The position numbers and the translations under genes were made by a program. Below the pieces are notes generated by a model. It saw only the letters and a program-made list of their open reading frames with translations. It was not told the DNA's origin and did no database searches. 64,000 nucleotides of DNA from Salinarchaeum sp. Harcht-Bsk1 (GTDB lineage Archaea > Halobacteriota > Halobacteria > Halobacteriales > Salinarchaeaceae). The stretch covers positions 2,499,014 through 2,563,013 of the forward strand of contig NC_021313.1 in NCBI RefSeq assembly GCF_000403645.1. Direction: 5' to 3'. Positions 27,740-62,606 of the stretch are shown one piece after another. Numbering within the stretch: the stretch's first letter is position 1; every line of letters begins with the position of its first letter.

Positions 27740-27966
27740 GTCGGCGAACGACTGGAAGGAGTGCGCCAGGAGACTCTCTTCGTTCGTCTCCTGAACCCTG
27801 GCTCGCATGCGCTCGCCAGGACGCCGACCGGGACTGAGCAAATCCGTCGGATTTGCGAGGGTCGGTCGGCAAACGACTGGAAGGAGTGTGCCTGGAGACT
27901 CACTTCGTTCGTCTCCTGAACCCTGGCTCGCATGCGCTCGCCAGGACGCCGACCGGGAATTGAACC
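27740..27966 (-). repeat. Duplicated unit with tRNA-Gly 3'-end fragments and hairpins
   Basis: Two copies (about 27740-27835 and 27865-27959, offset 125 bases) of a unit. In each, a GGAGAC...GTCTCC hairpin with a GAACGAA-type loop and a CCTGGC-12 nt-GCCAGG hairpin precede a truncated tRNA-Gly 3' end (GCCGACCGGGA). The second copy's tRNA fragment (27947-27966) matches 19 of 20 bases of the intact tRNA-Gly 3' part. A separate hairpin, GCAAATCC-GTC-GGATTTGC-like, lies between the copies at about 27838-27857. Confidence 0.75.
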
Positions 27967-28019
27967 ATTGCCAGCGGTTCCTGCTCGGGCCCCTGGCCCT
28001 GCGCGGGCTGCCACTGGCA

Positions 28020-28042
28020 GGATTCAAATCCCGGCGGGCGCA
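28020..28042 (+). repeat. Inverted copy of the tRNA-Gly 3' end
   Basis: Opposite in orientation to the intact tRNA-Gly gene. It matches 20 of 23 bases of its T arm and 3' acceptor strand (core TTCAAATCCCGG and GGCGCA). It is preceded (in tRNA sense) by the 18-base motif at 28045-28062 that also occurs at the tRNA-Cys locus. Confidence 0.75.
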
Positions 28043-28044
28043 GT

Positions 28045-28062
28045 CGCTCCTCACGTTCGTTC
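28045..28062 (-). repeat. 18-base motif shared with the tRNA-Cys locus
   Basis: On the minus strand this reads GAACGAACGTGAGGAGCG, identical to 62450-62467 downstream of tRNA-Cys and in the same relative orientation to its tRNA. Confidence 0.8.
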
Positions 28063-28122
28063 ACCGAAGCGGCTCCGCCGCTTCGAGCCGTGTCTCACGC
28101 TGTTCGACACGACGCCGCGACA

Positions 28123-28193
28123 TGCGCCGACCGGGATTTGAACCCGGGCCATGAGCTTGGAAGGCTCAGGTCCTCCCACTAGACCACCGGCGC
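28123..28193 (-). tRNA. tRNA-Gly (UCC)
   Basis: The minus strand folds as a cloverleaf: acceptor GCGCCGG pairs with TCGGCGC (one G-U), discriminator A; D arm GGTCTAGTGGGAGGACC; anticodon stem TGAGC/GCTCA around loop CTTCCAA, giving anticodon UCC; T arm CCGGG-TTCAAAT-CCCGG. No encoded CCA and no intron. It lies 66 bases downstream of the archease gene on the same strand and is followed by tRNA-derived repeat debris. Confidence 0.95.
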
Positions 28194-62125: not shown

Positions 62126-62149
62126 CTGGCCTCGGTTCCAGCTTGCGGA

Positions 62150-62310
62150 TTTCATCGCAATGCATAAGCCGACCACTGACCGATTTTGAACTGCGCCACG
62201 GTGGCAGAGTCCGGCCGAACGCAGCGGCCTGCAGTTCTGTCGGACTCGCTGTCGCTCGCCCGACAGCGTCGCACCCTCGCTTCGCTCGCGTGCGACAGCC
62301 GCCCATCCCC
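62150..62310 (+). pseudogene. Interrupted tRNA-Cys copy with duplicated promoter
   Basis: 62150-62194 repeats the 45 bases upstream of the intact gene (62320-62364). 62195-62234 is the 5' half of tRNA-Cys (identical to 62365-62404) up to G37, and 62297-62310 is the following 14 bases (A38 onward). Between them, 62 bases made of two tandem hairpins (62237-62266 and 62268-62296) sit exactly at 37/38, the canonical archaeal intron site. The T arm and acceptor 3' strand are lost, so it is probably non-functional. Confidence 0.8.
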
Positions 62311-62364: not shown

Positions 62365-62440
62365 GCCACGGTGGCAGAGTCCGGCCGAACGCAGCGGCCT
62401 GCAGAGCCGCCCATCCCCGGTTCAAATCCGGGCCGTGGCT
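62365..62440 (+). tRNA. tRNA-Cys (GCA)
   Basis: Acceptor GCCACGG pairs with CCGTGGC, discriminator U; anticodon stem GCGGC/GCCGC around loop CTGCAGA, anticodon GCA; T arm CCCGG-TTCAAAT-CCGGG. No CCA encoded, no intron. Its 5' half and upstream region are duplicated at 62150-62310, and its 3' end recurs at 62467-62494 (inverted) and 62536-62559 (direct). Confidence 0.96.
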
Positions 62441-62449
62441 TGCTGCGAC

Positions 62450-62467
62450 GAACGAACGTGAGGAGCG
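62450..62467 (+). repeat. 18-base motif shared with the tRNA-Gly locus
   Basis: GAACGAACGTGAGGAGCG, identical to the reverse complement of 28045-28062. It forms the loop between the GTGGCTTGC and GCAAGCCAC arms at 62435-62475, where the left arm is the tRNA-Cys 3' end itself. Confidence 0.8.
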
Positions 62468-62559
62468 CAAGCCACCGCCGGATATGAACCCCGGAAGTCG
62501 CAGCGGCCGAGCGGAGCGAGGCCGACCGTCTTCCTCCGGTTCAAATCCGGGCCGTGGCT
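62467..62559 (+). repeat. Inverted then direct copies of the tRNA-Cys 3' end
   Basis: 62467-62494, read in reverse complement, is an imperfect copy of the tRNA-Cys T arm and acceptor end including the following TTGC. A short hairpin follows (CGGCC/GGCCG, loop GAGCGGAGCGA, around 62504-62523). Then 62536-62559 is an exact 24-base direct copy of 62417-62440. Confidence 0.8.
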
Positions 62560-62606
62560 TTCCGTTCGATACCTCGGTGCGCGTCCTGAACGATGCCGCT
62601 TCATCG

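Follow-up and report, generated by a model that had tools for sequence, protein, structure and literature searches.

Cis-mobilizable elements (CIMEs), described together with site-specific accretion (PMC5704250, PMC3146451), carry no integration gene, lie between direct copies of an RNA gene's 3' end and are stacked beside mobile islands at the same site. At the attachment sites of archaeal tyrosine integrases, for example that of SNJ2 (PMC8371274), the tRNA 3' end serves as the site and a direct repeat restores the tRNA. The REP and BIME palindromes, including the CGTC-tagged REPs (PMC3733652), are small, non-coding sequences with conserved tags and no resident enzyme. The haloarchaeal units described here share all of these features with the respective systems. 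Unlike CIMEs, they are only about 100 bp long, contain no genes, are built around a covarying palindrome, occur at many tRNA isotypes and have arms that follow the host tRNA. Unlike SNJ2-type elements, they encode no integrase, and the first of the two unit types combines repeats of 22-25 nt with an inverted copy. REPs are scattered through intergenic DNA and have stems that are not copies of the target, whereas the units lie at tRNA 3' ends.

The window, a stretch of 64,000 nt from the genome of Salinarchaeum sp. Harcht-Bsk1, contains two tRNA genes followed by such units (Table 1). An initial annotation, made from the letters alone, had described, behind tRNA-Cys, a conserved 18-mer followed by the tRNA 3' end in inverted form, a hairpin and a copy in direct orientation, and all of these parts are present where it had placed them. 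The order behind the gene is the 3' end, TGCTGCGAC, the 18-mer GAACGAACGTGAGGAGCG, GCAAGCCAC and the bases following it, the core GGAAGTCGCAGCGGCCGAGCGGAGCGAGGCCGACCGTCTTCC and the direct copy of the 3' end. Pairing is exact between GTGGCTTGC at 62435-62443 and GCAAGCCAC at 62467-62475. The inverted copy was said to reach past this 9-base stem into the T arm, and it does so imperfectly: the continuation reads CCGGATATGAACC, with 3-5 nt mismatched at the junction of acceptor and T arm. The direct copy is exact, as claimed, but comprises 25 nt instead of the 24 reported, 62417-62441 being identical to 62536-62560. The covariance model R1 matches the unit with 75.2 bits (E 7e-17, genome positions 2561491-2561563).

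Table 1. Units behind tRNA-Cys and tRNA-Gly, and islands located at tRNA genes. Positions are those of the window, except in the last four rows, where they refer to contig C1 of Harcht-Bsk1 (G000) or of Salinarchaeum laminariae R26 (G001).
Feature	Position	Strand	Evidence
tRNA-Cys(GCA), host gene of the unit	62365-62440	+	ARAGORN; RF00005 50.1 bits
Left repeat copy flanking the unit: tRNA-Cys 3' end (T arm and acceptor strand)	62417-62441	+	25-nt exact direct repeat D2
Hairpin 1: GTGGCTTGC (acceptor end and trailer) paired with GCAAGCCAC	62435-62475	+	own-versus-permuted stem test
Conserved loop module GAACGAACGTGAGGAGCG (18-mer) behind tRNA-Cys	62450-62467	+	
Inverted tRNA-Cys 3' end, imperfect: acceptor followed by T arm, with mismatches at their junction	62467-62490	+	
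Hairpin 2: core GGAAGTCGCAG..GACCGTCTTCC (inner hairpin GAGCGGAGCGA) between the inverted and the direct T arm	62479-62560	+	R1, covariation and folds
Right repeat copy flanking the unit: tRNA-Cys 3' end, exact and direct	62536-62560	+	
tRNA-Gly(TCC), second host gene of the window	28123-28193	-	
tRNA-Gly unit, nested hairpins and core hairpin	27947-28122	-	R1 82.9 bits, E 5e-19
18-mer GAACGAACGTGAGGAGCG, exact, behind tRNA-Gly(TCC)	28045-28062	-	
Inverted copy in the tRNA-Gly unit	28020-28042	-	
Direct copy in the tRNA-Gly unit	27947-27973	-	
Core of second-type unit, GACCCTCGC..hairpin..GCTCAG, then shorter direct copy TCCCGGTCGGCG	27820-27868	-	read from sequence
Island at tRNA-Phe	G000:C1 2714037-2722604		
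Island at tRNA-Val-CAC	G000:C1 1339121-1374510		
Island at tRNA-Arg-TCG	G000:C1 3160244-3163854		
Island at tRNA-Arg-TCT	G001:C1 1228295-1234173		

The arrangement at tRNA-Gly had been reported to be the same, and the 18-mer, the inverted copy and the direct copy are all found there. The origin of the two loci from one block duplication is rejected, as the tRNAs and the arms differ. A second type of unit has a direct copy of 14-15 nt (TCCC and the acceptor strand) and a core of the form ACCYTCGC..hairpin..GCTCRG, and is present at other tRNAs too. Units of this type were seen at 27820-27868 on the minus strand of the window and at loci L030, L131, L133, L143 and L153; they stack with units of the first type in either order, and the length of their repeat resembles that of SNJ2-type attachment sites.

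Across the genome of Harcht-Bsk1, 24 of 42 tRNAs are followed within 300 nt by a direct copy of their own 3' end, with 0.83 expected, and no tRNA of the 42 has such a copy upstream. In the congener S. laminariae R26 the count is 20 of 42 (0.51 expected); the assignment of G001 to this strain follows from extended runs of 40-mers that its loci have in common with locus L220 of R26. Copies were counted at a score of at least 28, and the expectations were computed from the ends of other tRNAs. The counts bear out the view of the initial annotation that the arrangement is an element; chance as the source of the copies is rejected by the own-versus-other counts, by permutation and by the placement of the motif. 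The 18-mer, with up to two mismatches, has six sites in the 3,255,260-bp genome, five of which lie directly behind a tRNA (Gly, Cys, Lys, Glu and Leu).

Most Harcht-Bsk1 sites have a common spacer architecture: hairpin 1 with the conserved loop, the inverted T arm, the core, and the direct T arm with the acceptor strand. The stems of the core vary (GGAAG/CTTCC, GCCAG/CTGGC, GCGAG/CTCGC and others), and the core hairpin covaries strongly. Among 20 cores, 55 cells changed on both sides, compared to 17 in shuffles, and the covariation score is 0.364, compared to 0.151 for shuffled cores and 0.04-0.08 for slid structures. A T-loop change, GGTTCACAATCC replacing GGTTCAAATCC, recurs in the direct T-arm copy (Ile, Arg-TCG and Cys in S. 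laminariae; Phe at locus L093). Covariation would also be compatible with an RNA device in which the inverted arm switches its pairing between the 3' half of the tRNA and the direct copy and so controls 3' processing or termination. The inverted copy is able to pair with either neighbor, and the unit folds better than shuffled sequences, more clearly as RNA (z -3.5) than as DNA (z -2.05). Nevertheless, such a device appears unlikely: half of the tRNAs carry no unit, orthologous tRNAs differ in having one, the structure is kept in units displaced by 3.6-35 kb, and identical tandem copies exist.

At E <= 1e-8, R1 finds matches in 108 of 117 Halobacteria genomes, with up to 32 copies in each. In a phylum-wide draw of 295 genomes 50 match the model, and among the matches listed all belong to one order and none lies outside the class. 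Because R1 includes T-arm sequence, its matches have a bias for tRNA-like sites. An independent test was made with the 17 nt at the core of the 18-mer, in which there is no tRNA sequence. This motif is present in 37 of the 117 genomes, representing 20 genera, and its reversed control gave no matches in the same 117 genomes. The initial annotation had pointed to other haloarchaeal genomes as the place to look for the motif next to tRNA 3' ends, and there 28 of 30 examined loci lie within 290 nt behind a tRNA (Lys, Val, Gln, Met, Pro, Arg, Gly, Cys, His, Ser and Leu), with arms that fit the local tRNA. The 18-mer is one among several loop modules in the family.

The pattern of the core taken alone recovers 126 sites, 44 of them behind a tRNA. 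Most of the remaining sites are members of a second family of haloarchaeal repeats, and some, in bacteria, match by chance. As this second family carries the core with other arms, the core is a module that is not restricted to tRNAs. Members of the family (loci L083-L091 and many Halorubrum loci, e.g. L198, L204 and L246) have the same covarying core, GGAAGTCGCAGCCCG..GGAACGTCTTCC, lie away from tRNAs and are often adjacent to GGGTGGGACTCAAAGGGGC or CTTCGAAAGGGGCC. The core pattern has no match in the IMG/VR viral contigs and phage records contain no convincing copy of the unit; transport of copies by viruses is rejected on these grounds. Plasmids gave a single weak haloarchaeal match (E 0.03, Natronorubrum bangense). 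In Rfam 15, tRNA aside, nothing matches above threshold, the best score being 20 bits against a gathering score of 80. As no earlier description was found in Rfam or by keyword search of open-access papers, the family is apparently undescribed so far.

The units are palindromic, short, gene-free and multi-copy, as REPs and MITEs are, and their hairpins and target-derived ends recall the biology of REPs and of IS605. This raises the question of whether they could be moved by reverse transcription or by single-strand transposition of the IS200/IS605 type. An associated transposase (RAYT/TnpA in the case of GTAG REPs) or transposon terminal repeats would be expected of REPs and MITEs. The Y1 transposase TnpA is missing from the five high-copy genomes G000, G001, G091, G072 and G024, unlike what is seen for transposase-linked REPs, and it is found in most zero-copy genomes. 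A host reverse transcriptase is absent from all 19 genomes searched, which carry from zero to more than 30 unit copies each. Both enzymes are excluded as general movers, and we give this route almost no credence.

The inverted and direct copies were proposed to track the local tRNA. To quantify this, the site of the inverted arm was located by a neutral consensus, and the arms of 33 units were found to match their own tRNAs at 373 positions in total; shuffling the tRNAs among the units gave a mean of 322 and a maximum of 345 in 20,000 shuffles. The arms thus fit their own tRNA better than others, as in His (CGAGAATCGAAC..GTTCGATTCTCG) and Val-GAC (GCGGAGTTGAAC..GTTCAACTCCGC). Hairpin 1 pairs the acceptor end and trailer over up to 17 bp (Met), with a mean of 7.3 for own and 4.4 for mismatched pairs. 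For the 17-nt motif, 44 distinct sites in many genera were compared; the stems have a mean of 5.05 bp with their own flanks, versus 2.63 (maximum 3.14) after permutation. For a single loop module to sit at many isotypes with arms that match, either the arms must be re-templated at each tRNA or the lineages must be old, specific to one tRNA and altered by compensatory change, and the units raise the question of how a mobile sequence gains arms that match its tRNA.

Small hairpins with fixed loops bear on this question. Around tRNAs, loops of the form GARCGNAGYGA have own flanks complementary over at least 5 bp at 30 of 117 sites, compared to 0.9 after permutation; the loci were picked around tRNAs, which biases their frequency and leaves the own-versus-permuted comparison unbiased. 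The closing pair is mostly G-C or A-T and covaries. Such hairpins with arbitrary stems are common, one example lying near 27908 on the minus strand of the window. The loop includes GCGNAGC flanked by tandem GA, and GCGNAGC forms an exceptionally stable DNA mini-hairpin. Fold-back at the level of DNA is therefore favored, short of proof, as the origin of matching arms, and fold-back copying is our favored guess for their source.

In its strongest form, this process would account for the units as a whole: a polymerase would stall at the tRNA gene, and the nascent strand would fold at a mini-hairpin (GA-RCGNAGY-GA or the 18-mer) and copy its own flank, so that units and arms are written locally by template switching or quasi-palindrome correction and not brought in. 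Fixed loops with arbitrary matching stems, the same 17-nt loop with local arms at many isotypes, and hairpin 1 stems that extend past the tRNA into the trailer all agree with such copying. We find it doubtful, however, as a complete explanation. Fold-back alone leaves unexplained the exact direct copy of 22-25 nt, the exact unit-sized empty sites described below and the conserved core, and a fresh copy would lack the interruption that the inverted copy shows at a fixed place. A related and still tentative possibility is that the units represent mobile DNA of a categorically new kind, in which the ends of a unit are written anew at every tRNA gene from that gene's own sequence, with the mini-hairpins acting to re-template them. 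If this is true, the rewritten ends would let one loop module colonise any tRNA without breaking the gene.

Comparison of the two Salinarchaeum species, restricted to sites with aligned flanks, reveals exact empty sites in S. laminariae. The missing sequence amounts to 121 nt at Glu-CTC (unit of 121 nt), 123 nt at Leu-TAA (unit of 123 nt) and 244 nt at Lys-TTT, the last corresponding to two stacked units. Apparent empty sites at Arg-TCT in S. laminariae and at Val-CAC and Arg-TCG in Harcht-Bsk1 are not counted, as a larger island has displaced the unit there. At Met, Ser-GGA and Gly-TCC, an additional unit separates the older unit from the tRNA in S. laminariae, and this is probably the case at Cys and Lys-CTT as well; the order at Ser-GGA is less certain, since recombination between the two species' versions seems to have affected loops and cores there. 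In other genera identical tandem units occur at lags of 111, 125 and 129, with an identity of 1.00. Whole units that are present or missing, duplicated in tandem or stacked are what the genomes directly display; the element proposed in the initial annotation stands, and the physical copying back and forth across the loop that it envisaged does not follow. Integron attC sites, which recombine as folded single strands through IntI at a conserved R box, and cassette arrays bear a structural resemblance to the units, in an imperfect hairpin with an unpaired spacer and in exact stacked units with additions at a fixed gene. Unlike integron cassettes, the units contain no cassette gene and their site is a tRNA gene.

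Units are also found away from their tRNAs. In Harcht-Bsk1, copies of the tRNA-Phe end flank a unit 8.6 kb behind tRNA-Phe, a unit 35 kb behind tRNA-Val-CAC is preceded by the Val-CAC end, and a unit 3.6 kb behind tRNA-Arg-TCG carries copies of the Arg-TCG end; in S. laminariae, a unit about 6 kb behind tRNA-Arg-TCT carries copies of the Arg-TCT end. Tyrosine-recombinase genes lie 0.2-1 kb from five of the six off-tRNA units examined, with an estimate of about 1% for a random site. The larger islands obey the same placement rule as the extra units: they are located next to the tRNA and push the older unit away. The four islands in Table 1 are bounded by tRNA-end copies of 13-22 nt, and three of them have a tyrosine integrase near the far end. 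Repeats of 13 nt flank the larger islands, and repeats of 14-15 nt flank the second-type units.

Like CIMEs and other tRNA-integrated elements, the units are bounded on both sides by direct repeats of the target gene's end and have precise unit-sized empty sites in a relative. They might be remnants of integrated viruses or plasmids after deletion of their genes, as in a classic cis-mobilizable element. Site and stacking are as for the integrase-bearing islands, and the 13-22 nt end repeats resemble published archaeal attachment sites. However, deletions occurring independently would not leave the same covarying hairpin behind many tRNAs of 108 genomes, the sequence adjoining the tRNA in the Phe and Val-CAC islands is unlike the unit, and no viral contig has the core pattern. 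Decay from larger elements is thus improbable. We do not assign the units to the CIMEs, because derivation by deletion from an ICE, IME or virus was looked for in the shared covarying structure, the viral contigs and the two island ends and was not seen.

We propose, with about as much confidence as doubt, that the units are gene-free palindromic micro-integrants of about 80-170 bp whose site is the tRNA 3' end. Each consists of hairpin 1 (acceptor end and trailer, conserved loop, complement), the inverted T arm, the covarying core hairpin and the direct 3'-end copy. Units would be gained and lost through recombination at the tRNA-3'-end repeat, in the manner of a very small cis-mobilizable element. 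This recombination may be site-specific, with resident tyrosine recombinases acting in trans, may be plain homologous recombination between the copies of 14-25 nt, or may be both. The least certain part is that fold-back (quasi-palindrome) copying across stable loops could adapt the arms to each host tRNA. The units would require no host function and would behave as passengers. Several observations weigh against the proposal: neither enzyme action on a unit nor a circular unit form has been seen, loss explains presence and absence equally well, and a plain integrase leaves unexplained how one loop module sits at many isotypes with fitting arms. In addition, the core module occurs off tRNAs in the second repeat family and was not found in viral contigs, integrases are also present in zero-copy genomes, and integrase counts do not separate these from high-copy genomes.

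About half of the tRNA genes in the two species carry a unit, as do tRNA genes in most of the 117 Halobacteria genomes sampled. No smaller occupant of the tRNA integration niche would be known. As the extra units seen to date adjoin the tRNA, the arrays provide a natural record of the order in which units were inserted. They mark integration hot spots, and they can mislead the annotation of tRNAs, terminators and small ORFs.

Upstream of tRNA-Cys in the window (62147-62310, plus strand), the promoter and 5' half of this gene are duplicated in tandem (repeats D1 and D3). The duplicates are decayed, and the hairpins GTCGGACTCGCTGTCGCTCGCCCGAC and GTCGCACCCTCGCTTCGCTCGCGTGCGAC are inserted in them directly after the anticodon. 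Similar copies are found upstream of tRNA-Cys in S. laminariae (locus L165), at least one of them with the same kind of hairpin. These duplicates are the 5'-side counterpart of the arrays at the 3' end.
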